DNA of 64,000 nt from an uncultured delta proteobacterium. GTDB lineage: Bacteria; Myxococcota_A; Polyangia; Polyangiales; Polyangiaceae. Where the stretch lies: contig CAIVJW010000094.1 in the NCBI GenBank assembly GCA_903906315.1, positions 1 to 64,000 on the forward strand, given 5' to 3'. The position numbers and the translations under genes were made by a program. The notes below the pieces were generated by a model that had not been told where the DNA came from, did no database searches, and saw only the letters and a program-made list of their open reading frames with translations. The stretch's first letter is position 1, and each line of letters opens with the position of its first letter. Below are positions 10,636-40,141 of this stretch, piece after piece.

Positions 10636-10661
10636 GCGTCCCAGCTCGACTGGCGAGCTTG

Positions 10662-11112: not shown

Positions 11113-12105
11113 TCAGGCGCGCCAGCTCTGAAGGATGCGCAGGTAGTTCGCGCGCTCGAGCGCGGTCGGATCCGGGCAGCGCTCGTGGCTCATGCTGCCG
11201 CGCATCTGCTCGACCGAATGGTAGTCGTGCTCTTCCATCCACAGCACCATCTGCTCGCGCACCTTGCGGAGGTGCTGCGGCCCGTTGCGCAGCAGCGCCG
11301 CCACGAGCTGCACGCCGTCCGCGCCGGCCATGATCGCCTTGATGGCGTCGAGGCCCGTGTGGACGCCGCCGCTGGCGCCGAGCGAGCACTTCACGCGCCC
11401 CGAGAGCATCGCGATCCAGCGGAGTCGGAGCAGGAGCTCGTGCGACTCGGACAGATGCAACGTGGGCACGACCTCGAGCGCATCGACGTCGATGTCGGGC
11501 TGGTAGAAGCGGTTGAACAGGATGATCCCGTTCGCGCCCGCCTTCACCAGCTCGGAGGCGAAATGCGGTATTGACGAGAAGAACGGCGCGAGCTTCACCG
11601 CGACCGGGATCTTCACGGCGCTCTTCATCTCACGGACGAGCTCGAGAATCCGCTTCTCGAGTGCGGCTCCGGGCTCGTACGGGTCGTGCGCCAGGTGGTA
11701 CACGTTGAGCTCGAGCGCGTCCGCACCGGCCTGCTCCATCAGGCCTGCGTAGTGCAGCCACCCCTCGAGCGTCGTTCCGTTGAGCGAGGCGATGACCGGC
11801 AGGTGGACGGCCTCCTTGATCTCGCGGATGCGCTCCAGGTACTTGTCCGGCCCGAGCGCGTAGTCCTCCGCGCTCGGGAACATGGTGGCCGCCTCGGCGA
11901 AGCTCTCGTCGTGTGCGTCCATGGTCTTCAGCGAGCCCATCTGCTCGCGCGCCATCTGCTCCTCGAAGAGAGAATGCATGACGATGGCAGAGGCGCCGGC
12001 GTCCTCCAGGCGCTTCACCCAGTCGAGGTCGTCGACCATCGGGGAAGCGCCCGGCATGAGCGGGCTCTCGAGCTTGAGGCCGAGGTACTTGGTCGTCAGG
12101 TCCAC
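11113..12105 (-). CDS. Dihydroorotate dehydrogenase-like FMN protein coupled to pyruvate:ferredoxin oxidoreductase
   Basis: 330 aa from a GTG at 12105 that has GAGAGGGAAAG upstream; another GTG at 12123 would overlap the nifJ stop as GTGA. It is a class-1 DHOD-like TIM barrel with the N-terminal block TTKYLGLKLESPLMPGASP, a central SLNGTT segment, VAVKLAPFFSS, NGIILFNRFYQPD and the FMN phosphate-binding part ASGGV (about 235) and GADGVQL. Such proteins recur beside NifJ in bacteria and need not make orotate. No pyr genes are near. Ferredoxin-linked reduction is inferred from the neighbour. Confidence 0.8.
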   Translation of the reverse strand: MDLTTKYLGLKLESPLMPGASPMVDDLDWVKRLEDAGASAIVMHSLFEEQMAREQMGSLKTMDAHDESFAEAATMFPSAEDYALGPDKYLERIREIKEAVHLPVIASLNGTTLEGWLHYAGLMEQAGADALELNVYHLAHDPYEPGAALEKRILELVREMKSAVKIPVAVKLAPFFSSIPHFASELVKAGANGIILFNRFYQPDIDVDALEVVPTLHLSESHELLLRLRWIAMLSGRVKCSLGASGGVHTGLDAIKAIMAGADGVQLVAALLRNGPQHLRKVREQMVLWMEEHDYHSVEQMRGSMSHERCPDPTALERANYLRILQSWRA

Positions 12106-12119
12106 GTTCTTTCCCTCTC

Positions 12120-22047: not shown

Positions 22048-22725
22048 TCAAGGCTTGTGCGAAGGACCTCCGTGTTCTGCGCCGGCGTCCGCGGGCGCCG
22101 CGGCGGCCGACCCGCTCGGCGCGGCCGACTTCAGGGGAGGCGGCGCTTCCACGGGCAGGGTACCGCGCACGGCTTCATCGAGCGACACTCGGCAGTAGGG
22201 AGCGCTGAACGTCCCCATCACGCAACTCTTTTCCCCATCTCCGAAGCACACGGCCAGGTCGCCCACGACGAGCCCGTCCGGAGTGGCCGCGCGAATGCGA
22301 AGGATCGCGGCGCCATCGGCACTGCCCGTCCAGCGCTCGGCGTCGCGAACCTGGTAATGGATCGACCAGCCGCCCGCCGGCTTCCCGGGCTCGAACCGCA
22401 GGACGCCGGGTTCGATCTTCCCGTCGCCCTCGAGGCGCAGCCAGATGCTCGTGGGCGTCTTCGGCTTGATCTCGCCGCAGGCCGCCTCGGAGCTGCCGCC
22501 GGAGAGCTTGATGTCGGTGTGAAGGTAGTTGACGCGGTGGTCGACGACGACTCGCGCGTCCCCGAGCTTGAACGGGACGCCGCGGATGGAACCGGTCAAC
22601 GGTGCATCGGGGATGGACTCAGGAGAGTCGGCCGGCGGGGCAACGTCCTTCGGAGCCTTCGGGTGCACCTCGTCCTGGCATGCAGCGAGCCCGAGTGCGA
22701 TCACGAGTAGGGGCGAACGGGTCAC
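22048..22725 (-). CDS. Hypothetical lipoprotein encoded with the NrfD module
   Basis: 225 aa from a GTG at 22725 that overlaps the NrfD-like stop (GTGA) and has GGAGG seven bases upstream. The signal ends in the lipobox LAAC (about residue 16). The mature protein is a small beta-rich domain with RGVPFKLGDARVVVDHRVNY, two cysteines in VCFGDGEKSC and an Ala/Pro-rich tail. It has no haem or Fe-S motif. I do not recognise the family. Tight coupling suggests an accessory lipoprotein of the NrfD/ferredoxin complex. Confidence 0.7.
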   Translation of the reverse strand: MTRSPLLVIALGLAACQDEVHPKAPKDVAPPADSPESIPDAPLTGSIRGVPFKLGDARVVVDHRVNYLHTDIKLSGGSSEAACGEIKPKTPTSIWLRLEGDGKIEPGVLRFEPGKPAGGWSIHYQVRDAERWTGSADGAAILRIRAATPDGLVVGDLAVCFGDGEKSCVMGTFSAPYCRVSLDEAVRGTLPVEAPPPLKSAAPSGSAAAAPADAGAEHGGPSHKP

Positions 22726-23930
22726 GAGGCGGCCTCCGGCTCGAGACGGCTCGTGCCAAGCTCGATGGGAACCGCTGCCTTCAGCAGCAAGGTGTAGATG
22801 AGCGCACCGGTCGCCCAGATCCCAGCCGATACGCAGAATTCGGTGAAGCTGGGGATGTAGTCTACCACCTCGCCGAGCGGGGAGGGCACGAAACCCGGAA
22901 TGACGAGCCCCATTCCCTTTTCCACCCAGACCCCAACGATCGCTGCAGCGCACCCCGCGTGGAGAACCGCTGGGCGCCGATAGAGCGCCTTCGTCGTGAA
23001 CACGATGGCCGCAAAGACGTCGAGGGCGACGGCGGACCAGATGTAGGGGACGAGAGTCGTGTGGCCGTGAAGTCCGAAGAGAAGGTACCGCATCGACGCG
23101 GCGTGGTGCTTGAAGCTGTACAGCTCGGTGAAGATCTCCGAGAAGAAGAAGAACAGATTGATGAGCATGGTCACGGCCACGATTTGACGTAGCCGATTGA
23201 GCGCCTCGTCCTTGAGCGGGAAGCCCATCTTGTCCCGGACGATGGTGAGCGCGATGATCATCAACGACGGCCCGGCCGCGAACGCAGAGGCGAGAAAGCG
23301 CGGAGCCAGGATCGCCGCGTTCCAGTGCGGTCGGGCACCCATGCCGCTGTAAAGAAACGCGGTCACGGTGTGAATGCTGACGGCCCAGCCGATCGCAAGG
23401 AAGACGAACGGGACGTACTTCTTCCGCTCCGGCGTTCGCCCGCAGAACTTGGTAAAAAGTATGTATCCCGTGATGTAGGCATTCAGTGCCAGATACCCAT
23501 TGAGGACGATGACGTCCCAGGTGAGCATCGAGACAGGCCAGTTGAACCGAATGAAGTGCCAGATTCGGTCGGGCCGCCCGATGTCGACCATCACGAACAT
23601 GAGGCACATCGTGAGTACGGCAACCGCCAGCAGCTCGCCGAGCACCACGACATCGTGGAGTGCGTGGTCGTGGTAGACGTACGCAGGGATGACCAGCATC
23701 ACGGCGCCCGCAGCCATTCCGACGAGGTACGTGAAATTGGCGATATATGCGCCCCAGGGCACGTGGTCGACGAGATTCGTCGCAACGAAGCCTACCCTCA
23801 GCTGGTGAAGGTACGCGGCGCCTCCGAGCGCGATCCACGCCAGAAGGAAGGCGATCCATATGTAGTAGGACCGCCCTCCCCGGAGCATCGAGCGCAGGGA
23901 AGAGGTGACGAAGCGGAACAAGGGGAGCAT
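22722..23930 (-). CDS. NrfD/PsrC-family membrane quinone-interacting subunit
   Basis: 402 aa with about ten hydrophobic segments, the size and topology of PsrC/ActC/HmcC-type NrfD proteins. Typical features are HVPWGAYIANFTYLVGMAAGA near the second helix, DIGRPDRIWHF after the third, and PRFLASAFAAGPSL in the middle. NrfD proteins exchange electrons between quinol and a partner ferredoxin and may couple this to proton movement. The ferredoxin partner is the gene 15 bp upstream; no molybdopterin catalytic subunit is present. Electrons probably pass to the tetrahaem lipoprotein at the start of the operon. Confidence 0.88.
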   Translation of the reverse strand: MLPLFRFVTSSLRSMLRGGRSYYIWIAFLLAWIALGGAAYLHQLRVGFVATNLVDHVPWGAYIANFTYLVGMAAGAVMLVIPAYVYHDHALHDVVVLGELLAVAVLTMCLMFVMVDIGRPDRIWHFIRFNWPVSMLTWDVIVLNGYLALNAYITGYILFTKFCGRTPERKKYVPFVFLAIGWAVSIHTVTAFLYSGMGARPHWNAAILAPRFLASAFAAGPSLMIIALTIVRDKMGFPLKDEALNRLRQIVAVTMLINLFFFFSEIFTELYSFKHHAASMRYLLFGLHGHTTLVPYIWSAVALDVFAAIVFTTKALYRRPAVLHAGCAAAIVGVWVEKGMGLVIPGFVPSPLGEVVDYIPSFTEFCVSAGIWATGALIYTLLLKAAVPIELGTSRLEPEAAS

Positions 23931-23945: not shown

Positions 23946-24908
23946 CTAGCCGAAGAAGTAGTAGAAGCGCGGCAGGGTAGCGAGCTCCTCCTTGAGGACG
24001 TAGACCCGCTTGCTCTCGATGATCTTGCGAATATCGCTGTTCGGGTCGTTCAGATTGCCGAACTTGCGTGCGCCCGTGGGGCACGCCTCGAGGCACGCCG
24101 GAAGCCTACCCGTCCTCGTCCGATGAAGGCAGAAGGTGCACTTCTCGACGACGCCCTTGTGCCGAGCTCGGTTCGAAAGGTAGCCCTGGGTCGGATTGAT
24201 TCGGTCTGGCGGGATGCTGGCTTCGACGAAGTTGAAGCGGCGGGCGAAGTAGGGGCACGCGACGACGCAAAACCGGCAGCCGATGCACCAGCTGTAGTCG
24301 ACGACGACGATGCCGTCGGGCTCCTTCCAGGTGGCCTGGACCGGGCAGGCCTTCACACAGGGCGGATTGTCGCACTGGTGGCACTGCACCGGCATGTAGA
24401 ACTTGCCCTCGGCCGGCACCTTCTCACGGTCGTAGTAGGGCGTCGCCTCCTCGAATTCGAGAGAGCCCTTTTCCATCTCGAGGACCCGAATGTATCGAAT
24501 TTCGGGGTCGTCTGGGAGGTTGTTCTCTCGCGCGCAGGCCTCCACGCACCGGCGACTCCCATTGCACACGGAGAGATTGAGCGCGTAGGCGAACTCGACA
24601 CCGTCGATGGGGGCGGGGTCATTCATGTGGATGGTCACACCACTTCGACCGCGCACCTCGTCTTCAATCAGGGCGAAGATCCGCTTCTTGTCGTCCGGCG
24701 TCAGCGTCTTGTAATGCTGGCGGAGAAACTCCTCCCCGGTTGGAGCGCCGATTCCGCAGCCCTCCGTCGCTGCGGTCGCGGCGGCAGCGGCAGCGACCTT
24801 GAGGAAGGTTCGGCGCGTCCCGGAGTCGTCGACACGCTGGTCGACGAGCCCATGCGTGACATCGTCCCCGGAGGACGAGGCTGCGCAGTGTTCAGTGTCC
24901 TTTGCCAT
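23946..24908 (-). CDS. Tat-exported multi-[4Fe-4S] ferredoxin subunit (HybA/PsrB-like)
   Basis: 320 aa. A Tat motif RRTFLK with a long Ala-rich core (about residues 32-50) predicts export. Four clusters are visible. Site 1, CNGSRRCVEAC, has Ser where the second Cys is expected, so it may hold a modified or three-iron cluster. The others are CHQCDNPPCVKACP, CIGCRFCVVACP and CTFC-x11-CLEACP. It would pass electrons between the NrfD subunit and periplasmic cytochromes. The start overlaps the upstream cytochrome gene by 17 bp, and GAAGG precedes the ATG. Confidence 0.87.
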   Translation of the reverse strand: MAKDTEHCAASSSGDDVTHGLVDQRVDDSGTRRTFLKVAAAAAATAATEGCGIGAPTGEEFLRQHYKTLTPDDKKRIFALIEDEVRGRSGVTIHMNDPAPIDGVEFAYALNLSVCNGSRRCVEACARENNLPDDPEIRYIRVLEMEKGSLEFEEATPYYDREKVPAEGKFYMPVQCHQCDNPPCVKACPVQATWKEPDGIVVVDYSWCIGCRFCVVACPYFARRFNFVEASIPPDRINPTQGYLSNRARHKGVVEKCTFCLHRTRTGRLPACLEACPTGARKFGNLNDPNSDIRKIIESKRVYVLKEELATLPRFYYFFG

Positions 24909-25518
24909 GTCCTTCGCTCTCGCCCTCCTCCGGGCCCATCGCGTGCGTCTCTGCAGGCGCCGTCCTCGGCCACTCGGGCATTCGCTCCGGCTTCATGGGA
25001 GCGAAGGCGGGGGAGTGGGGGTCATGGCAATTGGGACAGGATCTGCGTACTTGGGCACCGTTCCAGAAGCCCGTCGTCAGTCCGTGCAGGCCAGCTTTCC
25101 AGTCGCGGAACTTGTCGCCGTGGCAGGAGCCGCAGACCTCGTATGCGTGGTCGAAGTCGACGAGGGTCCCGTCCTGAAGGTGCAGCTTGTCGATGTCGTC
25201 TTTTGTGTGGCAGCGATAGCACCACCCACCCTGCGTCCCGTGGTTGAGGACCTTGTGGGTGTGAAACTCCGTGAATTTGCGCTCGCGAGGGTCCGGCTCC
25301 CGGTTCGGCGAGAAGTGGCACCGGGAGCACGGATAGGTCGAGAGCAGGGGCGTCCTCGCCTCGACAGTCACTACGACGCTGGACGTGCCACCCTTCGGCA
25401 GCTGGCGGTGGTGCAGCGGCTCCTCCGACTGGTTGCAGCCGGCGGCCAGACTGGCGAACGGGAGCAGCACGGTGGCCCCGAGGCGAGGCGAAATGTAGGC
25501 TAGCCAGGGGAGGCGCAT
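24892..25518 (-). CDS. Tetrahaem cytochrome c lipoprotein
   Basis: 208 aa from the ATG at 25518, the in-frame start that leaves a short signal ending in LAAGC (lipobox near residue 28); the frame stays open upstream to about 25800 and no start has a strong ribosome site. Four CXXCH sites occur: CSRCH, CYRCH, CGSCH and CPNCH, with many extra His for axial ligation. The C-terminus is rich in Glu, Gly and His. It is the first gene of the leftward operon and probably takes electrons from the ferredoxin/NrfD pair. The start is less certain than the rest. Confidence 0.75.
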   Translation of the reverse strand: MRLPWLAYISPRLGATVLLPFASLAAGCNQSEEPLHHRQLPKGGTSSVVVTVEARTPLLSTYPCSRCHFSPNREPDPRERKFTEFHTHKVLNHGTQGGWCYRCHTKDDIDKLHLQDGTLVDFDHAYEVCGSCHGDKFRDWKAGLHGLTTGFWNGAQVRRSCPNCHDPHSPAFAPMKPERMPEWPRTAPAETHAMGPEEGESEGHGKGH

Positions 25519-25850
25519 CAGCGCGGGCGGCGTAGCAAGGGGCGTGCCGGGAGGGTTCGCGGGCGGTCCCGTCGTAGCCGTCGGGGCGCTGCGGTTCGCG
25601 GCTCTGCGTTGGCCGACCATTGGAGTGCCGGCGTGCGCATCCGTTGCGGGGGATCGGGTCGTGCCGTGACTCGATTCGTCCCGGGGGGTCACGCCTGGCG
25701 TCGCGCGGCGCCGTCGTGTGGCGAGGCGCCTCGCCGCAAGGTGCGCGCGTCTCGCGCAAGAGCTGCGGCCCATTTGGCTCAAATTCCCCTTGAAAGCCAT
25801 GGCTCATGACGTGCATAAGGCCGCGTGTCCCCTTGCACGAGGAACGTTCG
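25519..25850. promoter_or_regulatory. Divergent promoter region between the two inner-membrane operons
   Basis: About 330 bp separate the start of the tetrahaem lipoprotein gene (leftward) from that of the Rieske gene (rightward). Promoters for both operons should lie here. I see a slightly AT-richer patch around 25775-25810 but no clear -24/-12 or -35/-10 pair, so the position is inferred from gene orientation only. Confidence 0.45.
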
Positions 25851-26333
25851 TTGTCCGACTCGACCCCCCCGCCGGAACACGCTGGCATGCAGCCCGAGGC
25901 GCCCCAGTTGGCCCCTGCTCCGCGCCGAGACTTTCTGAGTGTTGCCGCTGGAGGCAGTGCGGTCGCGTTTGCCGCGGCTGCGGGCTACCCGGTCCTGCGG
26001 TACATGGAGCCGCGGACGCGTCCGCCCTCGGGCCCGACGACGATTGGCCGGCAGGAGGAGTTCCCCCCGGGGGCAGCGAGGATCGTTGCGGTCGAAGACC
26101 GGCCGGTTCTCGTCATCCGGGGCGAAGACGGGAAGTTTCAGGCATTCGTCGCGCTGTGCACGCACCTACAGTGTGTCGTCGGGTACTCGAAGGAGCGCAA
26201 GCAGATCGAGTGCGGTTGTCACCGAGGCGTCTACAATCTCGAAGGGCTTAACGTCGCGGGGCCGCCCCCGCGGCCGCTGGAAGTGCTCGATGTGGCCCTG
26301 CGGGATGGCATGGTCGTCGTGAGTGAGGCGTGA
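25851..26333 (+). CDS. Rieske 2Fe-2S protein of a bc-type complex
   Basis: 160 aa from a TTG at 25851 with GAGGAA six bases upstream; ATGs at 25806 and 25887 are alternatives. An RRDFLS motif followed by an Ala/Gly-rich helix resembles a Tat-type membrane anchor. The cluster-binding motif is complete: CTHLQC and CGCHRG, giving two Cys and two His ligands plus the disulfide Cys pair. It transfers the first electron from quinol. The stop overlaps the cytochrome b start (ATGA). Confidence 0.9.
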   Translation: MSDSTPPPEHAGMQPEAPQLAPAPRRDFLSVAAGGSAVAFAAAAGYPVLRYMEPRTRPPSGPTTIGRQEEFPPGAARIVAVEDRPVLVIRGEDGKFQAFVALCTHLQCVVGYSKERKQIECGCHRGVYNLEGLNVAGPPPRPLEVLDVALRDGMVVVSEA

Positions 26334-27364
26334 TGGAAGCGGGCGGACGGCGCACTGGATGGCTTGCGGACCGCTCTGGTTGGTCCGACCTCGTTCGGCC
26401 TCTCGAGGCGCGACGCGTCTCTGCCACGGGCTTCGATCGGTACCTTGGCGGCATCACGCTGCTCCTCTTCCTGATCGAGGTGGCGAGCGGCATCCTTCTG
26501 CTGCTTTACTACAAGCCGGATACGGTCCAAGCGTACGCCTCCGTCGGGCGAATCGTCGGCGAGATCCCCTACGGCAATCTCATCCGGAACGTGCACGCCT
26601 GGTCTAGCGACCTGTTCGTTGCCAGTCTCGGCGGTCACTTGCTTTCGGTCGTGCTGCGCCGGGCCTACCGCGCGCCCTATGAGCTCCGCTGGCTCAGCGG
26701 GATCGTGCTGCTCGCCATCGGAATTGGGCTCGCATTCACCGGAGCCGTCCTGCCGTGGAGCCAGAAGGCCTACGTTCAGGCTCGCGTCGGCAGCGAGCTC
26801 GCCCGATACGTGCCGGTGCTGGGCGATTGGCTTCATCGGTTCTTGCGCGGGGGCGACGAGGTTACCTCGGCGACGCTGCAGCACGCGTTCGGGTTTCACG
26901 TCGCGGTGCTTCCTGCTGCGTTGTCTCTCTTCTTCGCTGTCCACGTCGTTCTCCTCATGAGAAAGCGCGAGGAAACGGCTCCGGTCGAGGGGGCCTCGAT
27001 TCCTGTCTATCCGGATTTCATCATCAGGCAAGCGGCCGCCTGGACCGGCGTCGTCGTCGCGGTCATCACGCTCGCGACGTTTTCGGATCGTCTTCTTGGC
27101 TCGCCTGCTGATCCGCGCATGGCGACTCCCAGCGACGCTAGGCCGCCGTGGTACTTCCTCTGGTTCCACCAGATCGTTGCGTCGTCGTCGCGCGATCTAT
27201 TGGGCGTGAACGGGCCCAAGTTTCTCGTGGGTACTGCGTGCTTGCTCGGTGCGCTCGTCGTGGGGCTTCCATTTCTCGATCGAAGAGGTTGGAAAGTCAC
27301 TGCGTACTTGGCGCTCGTCCTCGTCTTCGTCCTCGTCGTGCTGTCAGTCAATGCGCTCTCCTAA
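26330..27364 (+). CDS. Cytochrome b of a bc-type complex (cytochrome b6-like with extra helices)
   Basis: 344 aa. Helices B and D carry the haem histidines: HAWSSDLFVASLGGH (14 apart) and the pair in HAFGFH...FAVHVV. The Qo-site region usually reading PEWY appears as RPPWYFLWFHQIV (about residues 265-277), so Glu of PEWY is replaced by Pro. About eight hydrophobic segments are present. With the Rieske protein it should oxidise quinol and pump protons by a Q-cycle or a variant. There is no cytochrome c1; the next gene is a nonahaem cytochrome whose start lies inside this gene's end. Confidence 0.88.
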   Translation: MMEAGGRRTGWLADRSGWSDLVRPLEARRVSATGFDRYLGGITLLLFLIEVASGILLLLYYKPDTVQAYASVGRIVGEIPYGNLIRNVHAWSSDLFVASLGGHLLSVVLRRAYRAPYELRWLSGIVLLAIGIGLAFTGAVLPWSQKAYVQARVGSELARYVPVLGDWLHRFLRGGDEVTSATLQHAFGFHVAVLPAALSLFFAVHVVLLMRKREETAPVEGASIPVYPDFIIRQAAAWTGVVVAVITLATFSDRLLGSPADPRMATPSDARPPWYFLWFHQIVASSSRDLLGVNGPKFLVGTACLLGALVVGLPFLDRRGWKVTAYLALVLVFVLVVLSVNALS

Positions 27365-28694
27365 CCGCAACGCAATCCGCCTCTCCGTGATCGCGCTCGC
27401 GCTCGCGGCCCTCGCCCGTCAGCCGGACGCCGCTGCCGGTCCGCCGGTTCCGGCGGCGTCCGCCTCGGCTTCGCCGGCATCGAGTCGGGCGCTGACGCCG
27501 CCTCTCGAGTCCGCAAATACCTGCGTGACGTGTCATGCCGGCCTCGCCGATCCGAAGCTGCGAGCGCCCACGACGGAGTATTCGTCGAGCGTGCACCGCG
27601 ACGACCGGATTGGTTGTGTCGGCTGTCACAAAGGGGATCCGCGCGACCCGACCGCGGGCGCCCATCGGGCGGCCGGCTTTCTCCCGCACCCGTCGCACGC
27701 CGAGATCGCGGGCGTCTGCGGCGGTTGTCACAGCGATGCCGGGTTCATGCGGCACATCAACGCGCGGCTGCCGGTTGGTCAGCAAGCCCTGTTCAATCTC
27801 AGCCTCCATGGCAAGCTGTCGGGGGCTGGGGACACCATGGCCCCGACGTGCTCGGTCTGCCACGGGCGGCACGAGATTCTGCCGGCAGCGTCGCCGAAGG
27901 CGCCCGTCAACCGATTGAACGTCGCGAAGCTATGCGCTGGGTGCCACGCCGACCCGAAGCACATGGCGCCCTACCAGATCCGAACGGATCAGTTCGCCAA
28001 GTGGGAGCGCAGCGTTCACGGTGAGGCCTTCAAGAAGGGCAATCCGCTGGCGCCGACCTGTACCGGCTGCCACGGTGCGCACTCGGCGACGCCTCCCGAG
28101 GCGTCGTCGGTTGCACGGGCTTGCGGGCGCTGCCACGAGGAGGAGCTTGCGCTTTTCGAGCAGAGCCCGCACTCGAAGGGCTTCAAGAAGCGAGGGCTGG
28201 CTCCTTGCGTCGCTTGTCACAGCAACCACGACGTCGCGCCGGCGAGCTCGCTGCATGTGGGCCTCACTCCGGACGCCACGTGCACGAAGTGCCACTCGAA
28301 CGACGAGAAACCGCTGAAGGCCGCGGACGAGCTCGCCGGTTTGCTTCGAGGCGCGCGTGATCGTGCGGCGGCGGCCCGTGCTGCGGTCGCCCGCGCGGGT
28401 GACGAGGGGCTCCATATCTCGGGGGCACCTTTTGCGCTGGACCAGGTGGCTACTGCGGAGCTGAAGTTGAGGCCCGTCGTCCACACGCTCGACCCGAAGC
28501 GGATGGCGGTGGCTGTCGCAGCCGTCGAGCAGGCGGCTGCCGCGGCCGAAAAGCTGGTCACTGACGCGGAGCAGGGGAGGAGAATTGAGCGGCGCGGCTA
28601 CTACGCGGCGCTTGCGCTCGCATTCTTGCTGTTTTCGACGCTTTCCCTGAAGGCTTGGCAACTAGAGGGGCGACGGAGGCTGGGTTCACCATGA
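27351..28694 (+). CDS. Nonahaem cytochrome c, tail-anchored, in place of cytochrome c1
   Basis: 447 aa from the ATG at 27351, which overlaps the cytochrome b end by 14 bp. A signal peptide (cleavage near DAAAG) is followed by nine CXXCH sites: CVTCH, CVGCH, CGGCH, CSVCH, CAGCH, CTGCH, CGRCH, CVACH, CTKCH. Then comes an Ala-rich helical part (about 340-420) and a C-terminal membrane helix. Intervening SVH and SLH motifs, as in octahaem cytochromes of the NrfA/HAO style, may be axial ligands. Its place suggests it receives electrons from the Rieske protein. It ends as ATGA with the 34-haem gene. Confidence 0.85.
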   Translation: MRSPNRNAIRLSVIALALAALARQPDAAAGPPVPAASASASPASSRALTPPLESANTCVTCHAGLADPKLRAPTTEYSSSVHRDDRIGCVGCHKGDPRDPTAGAHRAAGFLPHPSHAEIAGVCGGCHSDAGFMRHINARLPVGQQALFNLSLHGKLSGAGDTMAPTCSVCHGRHEILPAASPKAPVNRLNVAKLCAGCHADPKHMAPYQIRTDQFAKWERSVHGEAFKKGNPLAPTCTGCHGAHSATPPEASSVARACGRCHEEELALFEQSPHSKGFKKRGLAPCVACHSNHDVAPASSLHVGLTPDATCTKCHSNDEKPLKAADELAGLLRGARDRAAAARAAVARAGDEGLHISGAPFALDQVATAELKLRPVVHTLDPKRMAVAVAAVEQAAAAAEKLVTDAEQGRRIERRGYYAALALAFLLFSTLSLKAWQLEGRRRLGSP

Positions 28695-30952
28695 CGTCGC
28701 CCGTGGCCGCCAGCGGTCGCCGAGGAGCGGCCCGAGGCGGAGTTCGGCGGTACCTCGTTCTCCTCGCGGTGGTTGCGCTTGCCGTGCTCGTGGGCGCTGC
28801 GGTGTACCGAACGCACGGCTATGTCAGCCATGAGGCGGCGTTCTGCGGCGGGTCGTGTCACATCCCGAAAGACGCCACGGACTCGTGGCACTCCCGCGGG
28901 CACGAGGGTGTGCAGTGCCAGTCGTGTCATCCGGTGAACACGGGGTCGAGCTACGGCTTGCTCTGGCGCAAGGTGCTTGCAACGAGGGACGTCCCGAAGC
29001 ATGGGAAGGCGGAGGCGCGCGAGTGCACGAGCTGCCACCAGAAGAAGCCGGCGGAGTGGCGCCTGATCTCGGCTACCGAGGGGCACCGGACTCATCGTGC
29101 GGTCAAGGACGTCGACTGCATCGCGTGCCACGGGCCTGCGACGCACAAGGCGCCCGCGCCTGCTGAGCAACTGTGCCTGAAGTGCCACGAGATGGCGCGC
29201 TTGCACAAGCAGGCGAACGATGCCGAGACCTGTCTTTCCTGCCACAGCTTCGCCGTGAGCTCGCGCTTGGCTCAGAAGCTCACGACGCGCGCGTGCGAAG
29301 GGTGTCATGCCGACCCGGCGAAGATCCTCGAGGCAGCCAAACCAGGTGCGAAGCTGCCTGCGAAGCTCGTGGGGCCGGAGGTGTTGCACGGGGGGTTGGA
29401 CTGCAAGCTCTGTCACGACCCGCACGGTCGTAAGCCTCGTGTTCCCGAGGGGCAGCCGGTTTGCGCGCGGTGCCACCAGTTCGAGATGTTTCAGGCCGGC
29501 ACCGAGGAGCGAAAGGGGCCTGAGGGGCACCGTAACTGCGAGGGGTGCCATCGTCCGCACATGGAGCGCAAGCACGCTCTGGATTCGTGTGTGCGTTGTC
29601 ATGAGACCCGCGCAAAGGGCATCACTGCCGCAGGAGCGGGGACGTCGAGCGCGACGAAACACCGTAGCTGCGCGAGCTGTCACCTGCCGCATTCGTGGCG
29701 GGCGGAGCGTGCCGGCTGCATGACGTGCCACGAGGACAAGGCGGCGAGCATTCTCAACGCGAGTCCGGCAGGGCACAACGAGTGCACGAAGTGTCACGAC
29801 GTCCATGGGCCGCCGCCGAGCGGACAGGTCTGCCTGAAATGTCACAGCGATACGAAGTCGAAGCACGTCGCATTGGCGCCTGCTCGGCATAAGGACTGCA
29901 CTGCGTGCCACAATCCCCATGCGGCGAGCCGCGTCGTCGCTCGAGGCGCGTGTGCGGGATGCCACACGCAGCAGCTCGCGAACGTCATGCGGGACGGCCC
30001 GCAAGGGCATGCGAAGGGCGGGTGCTTCGGCTGTCACAAGCCGCACGAGAACCCGTTGCCTCCGGCAGATCTTTGCAGCCAGTGTCACGGGGAGAAGGCG
30101 AAGGTCGTCGCTGCTGCGGGCCCGCCGAAGCACCGCGTTTGCACCTCGTGTCATCAGCCACACAAGTTCGCCATCACGAGCGCCGCCGCGGCATGTTCGA
30201 AGTGCCATGGCCCTATCATTCAGCCCGGGGGGCCACACCAGGGCGATTGCAAGAAGTGCCACACCTTGCACGGCACGCCCACTGTCCCGAAGAGCGCGTG
30301 CTTCGAGTGCCATCAAAACGTATCGGCGGTCTTCAAGCCGCCGCCTGGCAACGAGCAGCATTCGAAGTGTCGCTCGTGTCATCAGCCGCACCGGCCGGCG
30401 TCGACGGCTCCGGCGAAGTGCCCGACCTGCCACCAGCCGAAGGCGGAGGTTGCCAAGGCTTGGCCCCCGAGCTCCGCGCACGCTCAGGAGTGCAACAAGT
30501 GTCACCAGCCGCATGATGTGCGGAGCAAGAAGCCCTGCGTCGAGTGTCACGCGAGCGAAGCTGCCAGCGCGATGGGTGGGAAGCACCAGTGTATGCAGTG
30601 CCACCCGCCGCACAAGGCGCCACCGGGCGCAGGGCCTGCTTGGTGGGGGCGCTGCCAGAGCTGCCATGCCGAGAAGGCTCAGAGCGTGAAGAGCCGTGGG
30701 CCGAAGCACTCCGAGTGCAAGAACTGCCATCAGCCGCATCGGTTTGCGGTGCCAGCGTGCACGACCTGTCATAAAGCCATGCAGGACAAGGGGGCGCACG
30801 GTATCAAGGAGCACGCTGCCAAGTGCAACGCCTGCCACAACCCTCATACGAGCGACGCGCCAGTTCGCGCTCAGTGCCTCGCTTGTCACACGAACAAGCA
30901 GAGCCATCAGCCCGAGGCGCAACGCTGCCAGGCTTGTCACCCGTTTCTGTGA
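28691..30952 (+). CDS. Giant 34-haem cytochrome c with NapC-like N-terminus
   Basis: 753 aa from the ATG at 28691 (ATGA overlap with the previous gene; GGAGG upstream). One N-terminal membrane helix (about residues 25-45) lacks a clear cleavage site, so it may stay membrane-anchored. I count one CX3CH site (CGGSCH) and 33 CXXCH sites, roughly one per 22 residues, up to CQACHPFL at the very end. Most sites occur in pairs, with -PH- after one member (CTSCHQPH, CNKCHQPH, CKNCHQPH), giving a repeated fold. There is no catalytic domain. A periplasm-spanning electron wire or store is inferred; it is the last gene of the Rieske/cytochrome b operon. Confidence 0.88.
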   Translation: MTSPVAASGRRGAARGGVRRYLVLLAVVALAVLVGAAVYRTHGYVSHEAAFCGGSCHIPKDATDSWHSRGHEGVQCQSCHPVNTGSSYGLLWRKVLATRDVPKHGKAEARECTSCHQKKPAEWRLISATEGHRTHRAVKDVDCIACHGPATHKAPAPAEQLCLKCHEMARLHKQANDAETCLSCHSFAVSSRLAQKLTTRACEGCHADPAKILEAAKPGAKLPAKLVGPEVLHGGLDCKLCHDPHGRKPRVPEGQPVCARCHQFEMFQAGTEERKGPEGHRNCEGCHRPHMERKHALDSCVRCHETRAKGITAAGAGTSSATKHRSCASCHLPHSWRAERAGCMTCHEDKAASILNASPAGHNECTKCHDVHGPPPSGQVCLKCHSDTKSKHVALAPARHKDCTACHNPHAASRVVARGACAGCHTQQLANVMRDGPQGHAKGGCFGCHKPHENPLPPADLCSQCHGEKAKVVAAAGPPKHRVCTSCHQPHKFAITSAAAACSKCHGPIIQPGGPHQGDCKKCHTLHGTPTVPKSACFECHQNVSAVFKPPPGNEQHSKCRSCHQPHRPASTAPAKCPTCHQPKAEVAKAWPPSSAHAQECNKCHQPHDVRSKKPCVECHASEAASAMGGKHQCMQCHPPHKAPPGAGPAWWGRCQSCHAEKAQSVKSRGPKHSECKNCHQPHRFAVPACTTCHKAMQDKGAHGIKEHAAKCNACHNPHTSDAPVRAQCLACHTNKQSHQPEAQRCQACHPFL

Positions 30953-33245: not shown

Positions 33246-33443
33246 TCGAGTGAATGGCTGCGCATGGTTTGCGCCCTGGGCGCAGAATCGACCGGCGTCC
33301 GGCGGGGCGACACGCTTCCGTTGGGCGTCTTGGGGGCTGGTACGCGGCTTGTTAGCGAGCCGCGCGCGATGCCGAGCACGCGGGTCGTCGCGCGCCGGGT
33401 CGGCCGCGCTTCTCGGCCCCGCAGGTCTGTAAGTGACGTTGCC

Positions 33444-34871
33444 ATGAGGATTCGACTCCCGATCGCCGCCGCCACCGTCCTCGCCGCGATCACGTGCTCC
33501 GGGCGAGGCGCCGCGCAGGCTGCGGCCGAGTCGGCGCCGGCGGCGCCCGCGCGTGCGGTCGAGCGGCGGCCCGACGCCGATCAGACGACGGTCCGCGTGG
33601 ATTCCGCGACGTACGTCCGCTACTTCCAGCGAGCGCTTCTGCCGGGGCCTGGGGGCGCGCTCGTCGAGAGCACCTCGACCGCGCCCCTCTACGAATACGC
33701 GGCGGTGCGCATCGACGGCATCGATACGCCCTGGAAGAAGGACAGCGTCGACGTCGAGCTAGCGGGCTGGGCGAACGTCAACCTCGGTGACGCCGAGGGG
33801 GGGCTCCGTGCGGACGGAGACGTGACGGTCGCGAGCGTCCGGCATCGGCTCGGGCCAGCCTACGTGACGGTCGGGCGCCAGCTCCGGGTGGGCGGGGCGG
33901 CTCGGTTCTCCCGCTTCGACGGCGCGTCGGCGGGCGTACGGGCTCCGTTCGGTGTGGGAGCGGACGCTTACGGTGGTTGGAGCGTGCTGCCTCGTTGGTC
34001 CCAGCAACCGGGGTACCATCTGCTCGGGTCCGCGTCCGACACGCTGCTCAGGAACCCGGAGGCGCTGCCGCCGACGTCCCGGAACGGCTACTGGCTTGCG
34101 GGGGGACGCGCGTACTACGCATACCGAACGAAGGCCGAGCTGGGCGTATCGTTTCACGAGCAGCGAGAAGCGGGTAACCTCGGTCGTCGGGATGTTGCCG
34201 CTGACCTGCGCATCGCACCGTGGGAGGTCGTCTCGCTGTCCGGCCAGGCGATGATGGACGCCGACTCGTGGTCGCTCGCGGACGCGCGCGGAGTGCTCGA
34301 GGTGGCCCCGCTTCGGTGTATCTCGATCACGGGCGAGTACTTGCACACGGACCCGTCGCTGTTCTTGTCACGCCAGTCGCTCTTCAGCGTCTTCGCGACG
34401 AACGCCTTCGACGAAGCCGGCGGCACCGTCACCTGGAGGCCCGTGCTAGCGCCGCAGTTGCAGCTTGCGGGTGGCGGCTTCGTCGAAATGTTCCGCGACG
34501 GCGAAGCGGGCTACCGGGCAAATGGGCGCTTGCGGTATTCGATGCGTCGCGACCGGGTCGTCGGTCAGGTGGCGTACACGCGAGTCCACGAGATGCAGAA
34601 TGGCTACCACGGCGGCCGCATCTCTCTGGGGGTTCGGCCCATCGAGCAAGCCGCCTTGAACTTCGAAGGCTACCTTTACCTCTATGACGAGACGATCCGA
34701 GGGGCCTCCTCCTCGCTCGTGGGGGCCGCGAACGCGGAGTGGAGCCCGAGCCGCCTGTTCTCGCTTCTCGTGGGCGGCTCCCTCGCGCGCACGCCCTACG
34801 CTTCGCTCGACGCGCAAGGCCTCGTTCGTGCGATCGTCCACTTCGAGACTCGCGCTGGAGGTGCCCGTTGA
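33444..34871 (+). CDS. Outer-membrane beta-barrel of a porin-cytochrome conduit
   Basis: 475 aa from the ATG at 33444, which opens a signal peptide (cleavage near GAAQA). The mature chain is almost entirely alternating beta-strands with aromatic girdles (for example DSVDVELAGWANVNLG and QLQLAGGGFVEMFRDG) and a closing IVHFE strand near the C-terminus. The size fits the OmbB/OmbC porins of Geobacter rather than larger MtrB. No haem motif is present. The stop overlaps the TTG start of the dodecahaem lipoprotein gene, strongly coupling the two. An insulating sheath for a cytochrome wire through the outer membrane is inferred. Confidence 0.72.
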   Translation: MRIRLPIAAATVLAAITCSGRGAAQAAAESAPAAPARAVERRPDADQTTVRVDSATYVRYFQRALLPGPGGALVESTSTAPLYEYAAVRIDGIDTPWKKDSVDVELAGWANVNLGDAEGGLRADGDVTVASVRHRLGPAYVTVGRQLRVGGAARFSRFDGASAGVRAPFGVGADAYGGWSVLPRWSQQPGYHLLGSASDTLLRNPEALPPTSRNGYWLAGGRAYYAYRTKAELGVSFHEQREAGNLGRRDVAADLRIAPWEVVSLSGQAMMDADSWSLADARGVLEVAPLRCISITGEYLHTDPSLFLSRQSLFSVFATNAFDEAGGTVTWRPVLAPQLQLAGGGFVEMFRDGEAGYRANGRLRYSMRRDRVVGQVAYTRVHEMQNGYHGGRISLGVRPIEQAALNFEGYLYLYDETIRGASSSLVGAANAEWSPSRLFSLLVGGSLARTPYASLDAQGLVRAIVHFETRAGGAR

Positions 34872-35947
34872 GCCGCGCATCGGTCCTTGCCGTCCTCGCG
34901 CTCGCCGCCGCGCTGGGGGCGGGGCTCGGCTGCAGCACTGGGGCGTCGACGCGTTTTCCGCACGCCCCCCACCTCACCGGCAAGAATTGCGGTGGCGCGG
35001 GGCAGCTCGCCTGCGCGACGTGCATGACCTGCCACGCGGGCGTGCGCGAGTCGAATGACAAGGCGTTCCCGACCGTCGCACGCTGCGCGAGCTGTCATGC
35101 GTCCGGGGCGACTCCGGAGGGCGACTCCGTCACGGTGAAGGGGATTCGATACGCTGGGCCCAGTGCCGCTTCGCCGGCGGTTCAGGCCTCGAGGGCGATC
35201 GTGTTCTCCCACAAGAGCCACATGCCGCGCGCTGGCATCCGCGAGCAGTGCATGAAGTGTCACGCGGGGGCGCCCGACGATGGCAAGTCGGCGGCCATGT
35301 ACCCGCCGATGGAAAAGTGCCTGACGTGCCACGACCAGGGCTTCGCGGTCGGCGACTGCCGGCGCTGTCACCAGGCGGGCGACCTCACCCGCCTGCGTCC
35401 GGAGAGCTTCCTCCGCCACGACGCCGCGTTTTTTCGCGACCATGGCGTGAAGGCCACGCAAAACCAGAAGGTTTGCGCGCAGTGTCATTCGCAGAACTGG
35501 TGCAACGACTGTCACGACCCGAGCCAGACGATGACGTTCGAGGCCCGGAACCCCGACGCATTTCAGCGGGAGATGGTCCATCGAGGCGACTTCGTCACGC
35601 GGCACTCGATCGAGGCGCGCTCTGCCGTGGCTACCTGCCAGCGGTGCCATCAGCCGTCGTTTTGCGACAGCTGCCACGTGCGGCGTGGCGTGTCGGGTGG
35701 CGCGCAGGGCGCCCGCAACCCGCACCCCGTGGGTTGGGTAGGGCGCAATGCGTCGGGGCCTAACTTCCACGGAGCAGCCGCGAAGCGGGACATCGTGACG
35801 TGTGCGGCATGCCACGATCAGGGGCCGGCGACGAACTGCATCTTGTGTCACCGCGTGGGCGCCGCCGGCGGTAATCCTCATCCGAGCGGCTGGTCGAGCT
35901 CGCGCTCGTCGCAGTCCGCGATGTGCAGGTACTGTCATGGTGGCTGA
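34868..35947 (+). CDS. Dodecahaem outer-membrane lipoprotein cytochrome (OmcB-like)
   Basis: 359 aa from a TTG at 34868; GGAGG six bases upstream and the TTGA overlap decide this start over longer frames. The signal ends in GLGC (Cys about 20). Twelve CXXCH sites follow: CMTCH, CASCH, CMKCH, CLTCH, CRRCH, CAQCH, CNDCH, CQRCH, CDSCH, CAACH, CILCH, CRYCH. FSHKSHM and HRGDFVTRHS supply likely axial His. The length and haem-to-residue ratio are those of a compact nanowire cytochrome; OmcB of Geobacter is also a 12-haem lipoprotein paired with a porin. It probably spans or caps the barrel. Confidence 0.82.
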   Translation: MSRASVLAVLALAAALGAGLGCSTGASTRFPHAPHLTGKNCGGAGQLACATCMTCHAGVRESNDKAFPTVARCASCHASGATPEGDSVTVKGIRYAGPSAASPAVQASRAIVFSHKSHMPRAGIREQCMKCHAGAPDDGKSAAMYPPMEKCLTCHDQGFAVGDCRRCHQAGDLTRLRPESFLRHDAAFFRDHGVKATQNQKVCAQCHSQNWCNDCHDPSQTMTFEARNPDAFQREMVHRGDFVTRHSIEARSAVATCQRCHQPSFCDSCHVRRGVSGGAQGARNPHPVGWVGRNASGPNFHGAAAKRDIVTCAACHDQGPATNCILCHRVGAAGGNPHPSGWSSSRSSQSAMCRYCHGG

Positions 35948-37622
35948 TCGGCTTCTCTGGCTCGCCATCGGTCTGGGCGTCTCCGCCACGCTTGGGGGCT
36001 GCCTCGAGCGTCGCGACGACGATCAGGGCGCGAACGCCGAGCCGAACCCGTGCACGCCGTGTCACGGCGCCAGCGGGCGGCCCGGTACGCCGTTGCAGCA
36101 GGCCGCTCCTCCCAACGACCTGAGCGGTAACACCGAGATGTCGGCGCCAGGGGTCGGGGCGCACCAGATCCATCTCGCCACGACCGCCGGGCACCGCGCG
36201 ATTGAGTGTGGCGAGTGCCATGTCGTCCCCCGGACGGTCGAGCAGCCCGGTCACGCGGACGGCAAGGGACCCGCGCAGTTCGTGCCGGGCCCGCTTGCCT
36301 CCTACGCGGGGCGTGCTCCGAGGTACGACGCCGTCGCGCATACGTGCAGCAACGTGTATTGCCACCTCGACGCGACCCCCCAGTGGACCGCGCCGCGCGT
36401 CGATGCGTGTGGGACATGTCACAGTTTGCCACCCGCCGCGCCGCATCCTCAGTCCAAAGACTGCTATGCGTGTCACGGCGAGACCGTCGACAAGTCGGGC
36501 GCCATCGTCGACGTCACCAAGCACATCGACGGCAAGGTGGAGGTCTCGCAGACTTGTCACAGTTGCCACGGTACGCCCGAGTCCGTGGCGCCGCCCAGGG
36601 ACCTGGCGGGTAACACGGATCCGTCGGCACCGGGCGTCGGGGCGCACCAGAAGCACCTCGCGGGCGGCGCAAAGAGCCGTCCGATCGCGTGCGGGGAGTG
36701 CCACGTGGTGCCGGCGAAGGTCGGAGATTCGGGGCACCTGGATGACACCGAGGGGGCTGAGGTCACGTTCAGCGGGGTGGCGAGGACGGAGAAGCACGAG
36801 CCGAGCTTCGACGCGAAGACGCTCCGCTGCGCGGACTCGTGGTGTCACTCGCCCCAGCCCGACGGCAAGCCGGCGGCGTCGCCGCGCTGGACGGGTGAGG
36901 ATGGCGACCCGACCTGCACGACCTGTCACGGTCAGCCGCCGTCGGCGCCGCACGTGCAGATGTCCAATTGTTCGTTCTGCCACCTCGATGTCGCGGGTGA
37001 TGCCAAGGACTCGATCAAGAATCGGGCGCTCCATGTCGACGGCAAAGTCGAGGTGGTGCTTCCGACGAAGTGCAATGCGTGCCACGGCAGCGCCGACTCC
37101 GACGCCCCCCCGCGCGACGTCGCGGGCGAGACGGCGACCACGGCGCGCGGGGTCGGTGCGCACCAGAAGCACCTCGGAGCCAGCTTGGTTTTTCGCAAGG
37201 TGGAGTGCAACGAGTGCCACGTCGTCCCGGCAACGGTGAAGGCGGCAGGTCACTTCGACACCCCGGCGCCCGCGGAGCTCACCTTCTCGGGCGTGGCGAC
37301 GGCGGGCGTGGCGAAGCCGCAATGGGACGGCGTGAAGTGCTCGGACACGTATTGCCACGGGACGGCGGTGAAGGCCGGCCAGGACATGAAGGGCTCGGTT
37401 CCGGCGCCCGAATGGACGAAGGTCGACGGGTCGCAGGTGTACTGCGGTAGTTGCCACGGCATCCCGCCGATCGAGACGGACCCGAACAAGCCTCAGACGA
37501 CGCACCCGATCGCCTACGAGTGCCCGGACTGTCACAAGAACCTCTCGACGGGCTTCATCTTCAAGGACCCCTCGCTGCACGTGAACGGCAAGGTGGACAT
37601 GACCGTCGGGGTCGATCTCTGA
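35937..37622 (+). CDS. 15-haem lipoprotein cytochrome with CX4CH sites (Geobacter CxxxxCH...CXXCH-type repeats)
   Basis: 561 aa from the ATG at 35937, overlapping the previous gene by 11 bp. The lipobox is LGGC. Three similar repeats (about residues 20-195, 195-365, 365-545) each contain GVGAHQ-x-HL, a CXECHVVP site, a CX4CH site (CSNVYCH, CADSWCH, CSDTYCH) and further CXXCH sites. I count 12 CXXCH plus three CX4CH. The combination matches the CxxxxCH...CXXCH domain first noted in Geobacter (I recall it as TIGR01904). It is probably a surface or periplasmic partner of the barrel. Confidence 0.82.
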   Translation: MVADRLLWLAIGLGVSATLGGCLERRDDDQGANAEPNPCTPCHGASGRPGTPLQQAAPPNDLSGNTEMSAPGVGAHQIHLATTAGHRAIECGECHVVPRTVEQPGHADGKGPAQFVPGPLASYAGRAPRYDAVAHTCSNVYCHLDATPQWTAPRVDACGTCHSLPPAAPHPQSKDCYACHGETVDKSGAIVDVTKHIDGKVEVSQTCHSCHGTPESVAPPRDLAGNTDPSAPGVGAHQKHLAGGAKSRPIACGECHVVPAKVGDSGHLDDTEGAEVTFSGVARTEKHEPSFDAKTLRCADSWCHSPQPDGKPAASPRWTGEDGDPTCTTCHGQPPSAPHVQMSNCSFCHLDVAGDAKDSIKNRALHVDGKVEVVLPTKCNACHGSADSDAPPRDVAGETATTARGVGAHQKHLGASLVFRKVECNECHVVPATVKAAGHFDTPAPAELTFSGVATAGVAKPQWDGVKCSDTYCHGTAVKAGQDMKGSVPAPEWTKVDGSQVYCGSCHGIPPIETDPNKPQTTHPIAYECPDCHKNLSTGFIFKDPSLHVNGKVDMTVGVDL

Positions 37623-37753
37623 GCGTGCCGACCATGGGACGAACCAAACAATTTCGAACGTCGACTGGAACTGCATCGCTCGCGGCCTGGGAGCGCTCGC
37701 CGAGGACCGGACTCACCGGCACCGGGGCATGCTGGGCATCAAGGAGGCATGTC

Positions 37754-40141
37754 ATGCGGACTTCGATTGCCATTGCTTGCCTCGCCGGCGCGGCCCTCGC
37801 GGCCGGGTGCGTGGGCGCGGACGGACTTCAGGGCTCGAAGGGCGAGGCGGGGCCGGCTGGCTCGGTCGCGGTCGGGCCCCAGGGACCCGAGGGGACGACC
37901 GGGCCGCAGGGCGCGGACGGTAAGCTCGGCGCGGATGGCAAGAACGGCGCTGATGGCACGTCGGTGTCTCAGGTGGGGGCCGTGCAGGGGACCGTCGTCG
38001 ACGGCGACGGCGCGCCGGTTGGCGACGTCGCGATCGAGACGGATCCGCCGACTTCCAAGCTCACCTCCGACGCGAAGGGCGCCTTCTCTTTGAAGGACGC
38101 CAACATCGGCGCCTACACGCTGACGGCCACGAAGAAGGGCTACGGCGTCGCGAGCCTCGTGTTCGGCGTGGTCTCGTCGGCAACGACGACGGTGAAGGTC
38201 ACGATGACCGCGCTTCCCGCGATCGCGGCGGCGTCGATCTCCGGGCTCGTGCAAGGGCCGTCTGGGCAAGCGCTTGCCGGTGCGAAGGTGTCGGTCGACG
38301 GCCAGGGCCTCGAGGCCACGACGGCGCAGGATGGGACGTTCACGATCACCGACGTGATGCCGGGGTACCTGTTCCTGTCGGTGAAATCGCCCGACGCGAG
38401 CAAGTACCTCGATGGCGACACGCGGTCGGCGATCAGCGTGGCGCCGGCAGCGAGCGTGAAAGACCTCAAGATCGCTCTCTCGGGGCGGCCGAGCGACGGG
38501 GCGACGTACATCGGCACGTATCTCTGCGCGGGCTGTCACAAGGCGTATGGCAATGAGCACAAGGCCAGCGCGCACGCCCGCTCGATCACGCCGGACGCGT
38601 CGCGCCTGGTCGCGAAGAACCTCTGGCCGAGCGTCGGCGCGACCGTCGACCCCGGCGTGAAGGCGCTGAGCCCGGTGGACGGCCTGGCGCTCGTGTCCGT
38701 CGTCCTCTGCCAGAAGACGGCCGGCGTGTACTCGATGAAGTTCGGCGGAGCTGCGGACTGCGCGGCTGCCGACGGGACGGTCGTGCCCGTGGCCGGCACC
38801 TACGGCGGCGAGGGCGACGGTGGCGTCGACCAGAAGCCGAACCTCGGGGTCCACAAGCAGCAGTTCTTCGCGAAGCTCGCGGACGTGCCCGTGGCCGCCG
38901 GGTGGACGTACACCGCAGGCAAGGACAAGGACTACCTCGTTCTGCCGGTCCAGGTGACCCAGAGCGGCGGCGGTCCCAAGCTCGAAGCGTATCGTGCGGT
39001 CGCCACCGCGAAGGGGGACGACGGCTGGACGAATCGCGGCCAGACGTTCTCGCATGCGTGTGCCGGTTGCCACGTCGTCGGGCTGACGCTCGACTGGGAA
39101 AAGCAGTCGGGCAAGTCGTACATCACGAAATTCGCCTACGCGGACCAGGACCTCGACCCGTCGCATCAGCTGAACATCGCTTGCGAGGGCTGCCATGGTC
39201 CGGGCAGCGACCACTTCGACGCGGCGAACGGGCAGAAGCCCGACACGATCATCCGGCCGAAGCTCCTCAGCGCGAAGGCGGAGCGGGAGCTTTGCGGCAA
39301 GTGCCACGGGGCTCACGACGGCGTATCGGCGGACCCGCCGGGCCTCGGGTACCCCTGGAATGCGGCCAATGCGGCCAAGCTGGGCGGCGGGGAGTTCTTC
39401 GCCGGCGCGTTCGCCCTGGCCGACTATATCGGCAACCTCGATTCTGGGGGCGTCGTCAATTGGCCCGACGGCAAGCACGCGAAGGAGCACCGCCAGCAGG
39501 GCGCCATGTTCGAGCTCTCGGTGCACGCCAACAATAGCGTCGAGCGACTGGCCTGCTCGAACTGCCACAACCCGCACTCGCAGGCCAACGGGCCGACGAA
39601 GTTCCCGGTGGCCGACGCCTCCGGCGATACCTACGAGCTGACGAGCCCGGGCCTCGGCGATAACACGGTCTGTCTCGGCTGCCACGCTGGGTTCGGGCCG
39701 TACGCGTCGGTGGCGAAGGCCGACGTCGCGAACGTCCTCGTCGGCGGCGGGGGCGCAGCCAAGAAGAACGGCGCCGCCTACGCGCCGACGGCTTCCGAGA
39801 TCGCGGCGTCGAAGGCGGCTTTCGCGTCCAGCGTGACGGGCCATATGTCGCTCAAGTCCGCGATGTCGCTTGCCGGGTACGACCCGGAGAGCGCGGCGAA
39901 TCCGGTCGGGCGCTGCTCGTCGTGCCACATGCCGAAGACGGGCAAGTCGGGTGGGTTCACCATCGCGAACAACAAGGCCGGTGTTGCCGCGATGGTGGGC
40001 GGCGACGCGGCGTCGCACGTGTTCGATGTGGTCCAGCCGTGGCAGGGGCAGGCGACCGCGAAGGGCGCAGCGTCGCCCGCCGAGGTGATGCCGAACAGCT
40101 GCGGAAGCTGCCACATCGAGGATCGGTTCGCGCCGAACTGA
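37754..40141 (+). CDS. Octahaem lipoprotein with collagen-like and carboxypeptidase-regulatory-like domains
   Basis: 795 aa; the ATG at 37754 has AAGGAGG upstream. The lipobox is AAGC (Cys19). Order: collagen-like Gly-X-Y repeats (about 28-72, as GPQGPEGTTGPQG), two carboxypeptidase regulatory-like beta-sandwiches (about 75-150 and 155-245), then a cytochrome region (about 255-795). That region has eight CXXCH sites: CAGCH, CAGCH, CEGCH, CGKCH, CSNCH, CLGCH, CSSCH, CGSCH. CEGCHGPGSDH and CSNCHNPHS resemble cytochrome c554-like proteins. A cell-surface terminal reductase or contact cytochrome on a stalk is inferred. The last gene before the terminator at 40164. Confidence 0.8.
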   Translation: MRTSIAIACLAGAALAAGCVGADGLQGSKGEAGPAGSVAVGPQGPEGTTGPQGADGKLGADGKNGADGTSVSQVGAVQGTVVDGDGAPVGDVAIETDPPTSKLTSDAKGAFSLKDANIGAYTLTATKKGYGVASLVFGVVSSATTTVKVTMTALPAIAAASISGLVQGPSGQALAGAKVSVDGQGLEATTAQDGTFTITDVMPGYLFLSVKSPDASKYLDGDTRSAISVAPAASVKDLKIALSGRPSDGATYIGTYLCAGCHKAYGNEHKASAHARSITPDASRLVAKNLWPSVGATVDPGVKALSPVDGLALVSVVLCQKTAGVYSMKFGGAADCAAADGTVVPVAGTYGGEGDGGVDQKPNLGVHKQQFFAKLADVPVAAGWTYTAGKDKDYLVLPVQVTQSGGGPKLEAYRAVATAKGDDGWTNRGQTFSHACAGCHVVGLTLDWEKQSGKSYITKFAYADQDLDPSHQLNIACEGCHGPGSDHFDAANGQKPDTIIRPKLLSAKAERELCGKCHGAHDGVSADPPGLGYPWNAANAAKLGGGEFFAGAFALADYIGNLDSGGVVNWPDGKHAKEHRQQGAMFELSVHANNSVERLACSNCHNPHSQANGPTKFPVADASGDTYELTSPGLGDNTVCLGCHAGFGPYASVAKADVANVLVGGGGAAKKNGAAYAPTASEIAASKAAFASSVTGHMSLKSAMSLAGYDPESAANPVGRCSSCHMPKTGKSGGFTIANNKAGVAAMVGGDAASHVFDVVQPWQGQATAKGAASPAEVMPNSCGSCHIEDRFAPN

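Follow-up and report, generated by a model that had tools for sequence, protein, structure and literature searches.

A cassette of four overlapping genes in a 64,000-nucleotide stretch of DNA (contig CAIVJW010000094.1, positions 1 to 64,000; hereafter the window) from an uncultured member of the Polyangiaceae probably encodes an unusual relative of the cytochrome bc complexes, built from a Rieske protein, a cytochrome b, a nonahaem cytochrome c (c9) and a 34-haem cytochrome c (c34). We read it, with a probability of about 0.6, as a low-potential quinol:multihaem-cytochrome oxidoreductase that feeds a porin-cytochrome conduit in the outer membrane. Gene order, haem counts, ligands, residues of the quinol oxidation (Qo) site, conservation and the lack of cytochromes c1 and f were taken directly from the sequence; from these we infer complex formation, the order of electron carriers, quinone type, acceptor and Q-cycle activity.

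All four genes lie on the forward strand. The Rieske [2Fe-2S] protein (25851..26333; Pfam Rieske, E = 2e-13) has an RR-type membrane anchor, and its open reading frame (ORF) opens with TTG at 25851, preceded by GAGGAA, a putative start that leaves the true one uncertain. It is followed by a 343-residue cytochrome b of the fused b6 plus subunit IV type (26333..27364; PF00033 (Cytochrome_B), E = 1e-37; PF00032 (Cytochrom_B_C), E = 3e-8), by c9 with exactly nine CXXCH motifs (27351..28694) and by c34 with 33 CXXCH and one CX3CH (28691..30952). An earlier, sequence-only reading of the window had described the junctions as ATGA, 14 bp and ATGA. The last two are correct: cytochrome b and c9 overlap by exactly 14 bp, and c9 and c34 share a 4 bp ATGA. 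At the Rieske/cytochrome b junction we find instead a 1-bp overlap, TGATG, if cytochrome b starts with ATG, or a 4-bp overlap, GTGA, if it starts with GTG. The 14-bp overlap recurs in 8 of 11 other genomes and the 4-bp c9/c34 overlap in 10 of the 11. Since the aligned cytochromes b of these 11 cassettes are 31-61% identical to the window copy, the overlaps are not due to chance, and they are kept across genera; the four genes are probably translated in a coupled way.

A class-wide search of 317 genomes, followed by inspection of gene neighbourhoods, recovered the order Rieske-cytochrome b-c9-c34 in another 13 genomes from the taxonomic order of the source, Polyangiales (G201, G182, G276, G202, G217, G210, G184, G183, G216, G215, G144, G146 and G136, the last with the cassette at a contig end), which makes 14 cassette members when the window copy is counted. 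Every c9 homologue has nine haem motifs and every cassette c34 has 32-34. Full-length c34 homologues (E < 1e-100) were confined to one order in this search. A scan with a single sequence that reached beyond the phylum yielded just one locus. A c9 homologue also follows Rieske and cytochrome b genes in genus g64 (family f4) and in family f52 of another class; there the Qo motif is PEWY and c34 is not directly downstream. The class also holds a further recurrent bc type (L079, L083 and L087), in which a Rieske protein and a cytochrome b with PEWY precede an 8-haem cytochrome, a twin-arginine translocation (TAT) protein of ~770 residues and a tetrahaem cytochrome.

The window cytochrome b has the fold and haem ligands of the bc family. 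Its AlphaFold2 model (pLDDT 83.7) matches a bc1 cytochrome b from the PDB with a TM score of 0.80, and its best sequence match is cytochrome b6. With the canonical bc1 and b6f complexes it shares the cytochrome b fold and four haem-b histidines, H88 (haem bL) and H102 (haem bH) in helix B (26594..26638, forward strand) and H189 (bL) and H204 (bH) in helix D (26897..26944, forward strand), and the Rieske protein keeps the cluster-ligand boxes CTHLQC and CGCH. The window differs from both in that Y147, E295 and Y302 of the Qo site are all replaced, in that the aligned helix-A column is devoid of the Cys that would bind haem c_n in b6f, and in the partner: neither the cytochrome c1 of bc1 nor the cytochrome f of b6f is present, and a multihaem cytochrome c gene is instead contiguous with the Rieske and cytochrome b genes.

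Neither cytochrome c1 (PF02167) nor cytochrome f (PF01333) was found anywhere in the 98.6%-complete genome with searches whose positive controls worked, which extends the earlier statement that c1 and f are missing to the genome as a whole. A second, unlinked bc complex does exist on contig C1, with a Rieske protein (CPCHGSRY), a cytochrome b (APWY) and a multidomain class-I c-type cytochrome. With no PF02167 protein in the genome and the second complex using its own c cytochrome, we reject a c1 partner encoded elsewhere. This second complex lies at L008 (G000:C1, about 9525-13093), and G074 has a set that is 60-69% identical to it. Its presence implies that the window complex is not the sole quinol:cytochrome reductase of the cell, whose genome also holds two haem-copper oxidases. 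The two Rieske proteins differ at their second ligand box, CGCHRGVY in the window against CPCHGSRY on C1, so that Gly replaces Ser and the Tyr is kept. In well-studied Rieske mutants, replacement of this Ser lowers the redox potential, and the Gly therefore makes it likely that the window protein belongs to a lower-potential chain. The futalosine route to menaquinone appears to be missing, PF02621 (MqnA/D) being absent from the genome in a search that did not extend to the classical Men pathway.

At the Qo site we compared the 14 cassette members with 20 other cytochromes b, using Rhodobacter capsulatus numbering. The window motif PPWY (27143..27154, forward strand) aligns with PEWY in the chicken and human proteins, which confirms the Pro noticed earlier at the Glu position. 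Ala138 (26744..26746) takes the place of the Qo tyrosine Y147 and His279 (27167..27169) that of Y302, both on the forward strand. Throughout the c34-linked clade the Y147 position is Ala, Ser, Thr or Asp, the E295 position is Pro (Ser in G144, G146 and G136), and the Y302 position is His in 13 of 14 members and Asp in G136. Only one of the 20 other proteins lacks Tyr at the Y147 position. An SE pair at 154-155 is conserved. We reject the Glu to Pro exchange by itself as a sign of new chemistry: the E295V bc1 complex of R. capsulatus remains functional and species that naturally have no protonable residue at this position exist (PMC10583091). The same work reports that Y147S abolishes activity and that the H276F/E295V double mutant is inactive in vivo (PMC10583091). 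Because Y147, E295 and Y302 have changed together, the alignment suggests that the proton exit on the bL side has probably been rebuilt; as a hypothesis, His279 is perhaps the proton acceptor. The original idea of altered proton handling thus draws little from the Pro and more from the loss of Y147 and the His at Y302.

Of the two cytochromes c, c9 is the more plausible occupant of the c1 place. Behind an N-terminal signal it carries nine haems and a helical stalk, and it is predicted to close with a C-terminal membrane helix (model pTM 0.56). Cytochromes c1 and f share this layout of signal, haem domain and C-terminal anchor, although no relation of c9 to them in sequence or fold was seen. 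It is likely to take the c1/f position, and we infer a c1-like docking. The N-terminal anchor of c34 matches NrfH over residues 13-75 (a NapC/NrfH-like region) and is followed by c7/c3-type haem repeats like those of the 12-haem G. sulfurreducens protein 3ov0. The homologue in G210 has 34 CXXCH and no CX3CH, and reads CXXCH at the site in question; the CX3CH of the window protein thus probably does bind a haem. Loci devoid of both Rieske/cytochrome b genes and c9 contain nine full-length c34 homologues, frequently close to NapC-like or multihaem-b proteins and to a porin accompanied by 12-haem proteins. We therefore reject c34 as a dedicated replacement for c1; it looks like a general periplasmic wire. 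The sequence-only reading, which had proposed a bc-type core with multihaem partners in place of c1, is borne out as to the core by the four coupled genes without c1 or f, holds for c9 as a candidate and fails for c34 as a dedicated substitute.

The conduit genes lie 2.3-7 kb downstream of the cassette on the forward strand and recur with c34. They comprise a putative outer-membrane porin (33264..34871), which has no Pfam hit and is assigned from its conserved context, and two 12-haem cytochromes as conduit partners (34739..35947 and 35802..37622). We propose that quinol would be oxidized at the remodelled Qo site, between cytochrome b and the low-potential Rieske protein, with the proton leaving by the rebuilt exit, perhaps onto His279. 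One electron would pass from the Rieske protein to c9 in the c1/f place, on to c34 as a membrane-anchored wire across the periplasm, and from there to the porin and 12-haem conduit; gene content suggests acceptors located in the outer membrane region or outside the cell. As all four haem-b histidines are present, both b haems of the window copy should be ligatable and the second electron could still run from bL through bH to the Qi site in a Q cycle. In relatives the core would be optional.

Several points weigh against this proposal. Both c34 and c9 are found without Rieske and cytochrome b, and complex formation and extracellular electron transfer are deduced from genes alone. No solved relative of c9 was found by sequence, and a Foldseek search with its fold gave no significant match (E > 0.1). 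A resemblance to the hydroxylamine oxidoreductase (HAO)/octahaem superfamily (VIA Z 8) is a weak partial alignment confined to the helical part of the c9 model, so the fold offers no usable match from which to identify c9. The loss of haem bH ligands in half of the family suggests, moreover, that the Q cycle may not matter.

This loss is graded. None of the 34 cytochromes b compared has lost the bL His pair, and the window copy and six close relatives keep all four histidines. Seven of the 14 cassette members, from five genera, lack the helix-B bH ligand (Gln in G184 and G210, Leu in G215/216 and G136, Thr/Ala in G144/146), and five of these (G215/216, G144/146 and G136) have lost the helix-D ligand as well; no bH ligand is lost in the 20 other proteins (Fisher p = 0.0006, phylogeny ignored). 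The cytochrome b tree implies at least three losses, a count made uncertain by long branches. The comparison genomes are drafts, with two agreeing genomes for each of two bH-less genera. Selection on the bH-less genes is purifying, with ratios of nonsynonymous to synonymous substitution (dN/dS) of 0.32 (G144/146) and 0.21 (G215/216). Four further genomes (G187, G190, G152 and G135) keep c9-c34, with Rieske and cytochrome b absent from the sequenced neighbourhood; these loci adjoin c4/4Fe-4S/NrfD genes (described below) or conduit genes, and in the c9 tree they group with G144/146/136 (91/97). The simplest reading of these sequences is a stepwise loss of the core with its partners retained. We advance more tentatively, as a possibility we would not bet on, that the bc complex has been dismantled around its multihaem partners in the order Qo relay, haem bH, core, leaving a Q-cycle-free quinol oxidation that runs one-way into a 43-haem relay. 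A limited literature search found nothing relevant on natural loss of haem bH.

The same losses would be expected of an enzyme that no longer bifurcates, in which the Q cycle is abandoned, both electrons leave through the Rieske protein to c9 and c34, and cytochrome b, with its haem bL, mainly provides a scaffold for quinol binding; the window copy would represent an early stage. Such an enzyme would account for the missing bH ligands beside invariant bL ligands, for the purifying selection on bH-less genes, for the loss of Y147 and E295 throughout the clade and for the persistence of c9-c34 in the four core-less genomes. We nevertheless consider it unlikely: the window copy and its six close relatives retain all four histidines, His279 and the conserved SE pair look like a site that was rebuilt and not abandoned, the order of losses is uncertain given the long branches, and all the genomes are drafts. 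In G144, G146 and G136 (L057, L078 and L096) helix D has a conserved His three positions beyond the lost bH ligand, and this His might ligate something.

Upstream of the cassette, on the reverse strand, lie a divergent tetrahaem cytochrome (c4; 24892..25800), which is linked in relatives and whose true start is probably well inside the ORF, a DsrO-like 4Fe-4S protein (23946..24908; 185.8 against a DsrO cut-off of 200) and an NrfD-type membrane quinol protein (22722..23930; above the NCBIfam DsrP cut-off, 406 against 350 bits). This DsrOP-like module has a tetrahaem in place of a trihaem cytochrome. As it stands beside most cassettes and at several core-less c9-c34 loci, it may supply electrons by another route, and where the core is gone it probably feeds the c9-c34 pair. 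Taken further, the locus could encode two separate machines, with Rieske and cytochrome b reducing another acceptor (e.g. a soluble cytochrome) and c9-c34 forming the outlet of the DsrOP-like module. The G187 locus, c4-FeS-c9-c34-NrfD without a core, fits such a division, as do the c9-c34 pairs that G190, G152 and G135 keep with other modules and the linkage of the DsrOP-like module to nearly all cassettes. We judge it improbable, and distinctly more so than a non-bifurcating enzyme, in view of the invariant order Rieske-cytochrome b-c9, which holds even where c34 is not directly downstream (genus g64 of f4; f52), and of the conserved 14-bp cytochrome b/c9 overlap.

Two side observations concern the neighbourhood. 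Between 16099 and 25800 (reverse strand) four further possible quinol-oxidizing modules stand beside the cassette, namely a CbcL-like multihaem/b-type fusion, a NapC-like 8-haem protein, a b561-type protein with a 9-haem partner and the DsrOP-like module, making five inlets in about 15 kb. At 37451-40141 an 896-residue protein combines collagen-like and carboxypeptidase-regulatory-like domains with eight haem motifs and is possibly a surface cytochrome.

Multihaem partners of Rieske/cytochrome b are already published and are not new in themselves. The Geobacter ext cluster, extHIJKLMNOPQS (GSU2940-GSU2930), combines a Rieske protein (ExtO) and a cytochrome b (ExtP) with 10- and 12-haem cytochromes and a porin, with no c1 or f reported (PMC2825233, PMC5877670). 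It differs in having a 23-kDa b6-type cytochrome b with a separate membrane protein, ExtQ, where the window protein is fused; the window has 9- and 34-haem partners, and no ExtKL-like selenoprotein was found. That the window simply encodes an ext-type (ExtO/ExtP/ExtN) complex with no functional difference is very improbable, for despite the common gene content (PMC5877670) and ExtP (NF040969) being the best NCBIfam match of the window cytochrome b, that match reaches 176.8 bits against a cut-off of 290 and covers residues 36-212, the b6 half alone, and the fusion, the haem partners and the remodelled Qo site all set the window apart, the comparison with Geobacter being made through published descriptions and, for cytochrome b, the ExtP profile. 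CbcVWX and PcmABCDEFG of Geobacter likewise join Rieske and cytochrome b to multihaem cytochromes c (5-haem CbcX; two 4-haem proteins in Pcm, which also has a 4Fe-4S protein), with far fewer haems than in the window, the c subunits being compared by description (PMC10989804). In the anammox complexes Kuste4569-4574 and Kustd1480-1485 a hexa- or octahaem cytochrome c replaces cytochrome f; they have a split b6/subunit IV, haem c_n and an NAD(P) oxidoreductase subunit, none of which was seen in the window set (PMC12954380). The archaeal Methanoperedens cluster has pentahaem partners and an annotated c1/f-like cytochrome (PMC4683180), and Caldithrix has a Rieske/cytochrome b pair with no monohaem cytochrome c gene nearby (PMC5317091). 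What is new here is the coordinated three-residue Qo change in the c34-linked clade, a non-acidic second Qo residue alone being known, together with the gradation among natural members in which haem bH and eventually the core are lost.

The dispensability of haem bH, the Qi site and the Qo proton residues is usually probed with damaged mutants. A natural series that runs from intact haems through loss of bH to no core at all, with the same nonahaem partner and under purifying selection, makes the question directly testable, and would show how a proton-pumping quinol oxidase can be connected to a chain for extracellular electron transfer, or disconnected from it.

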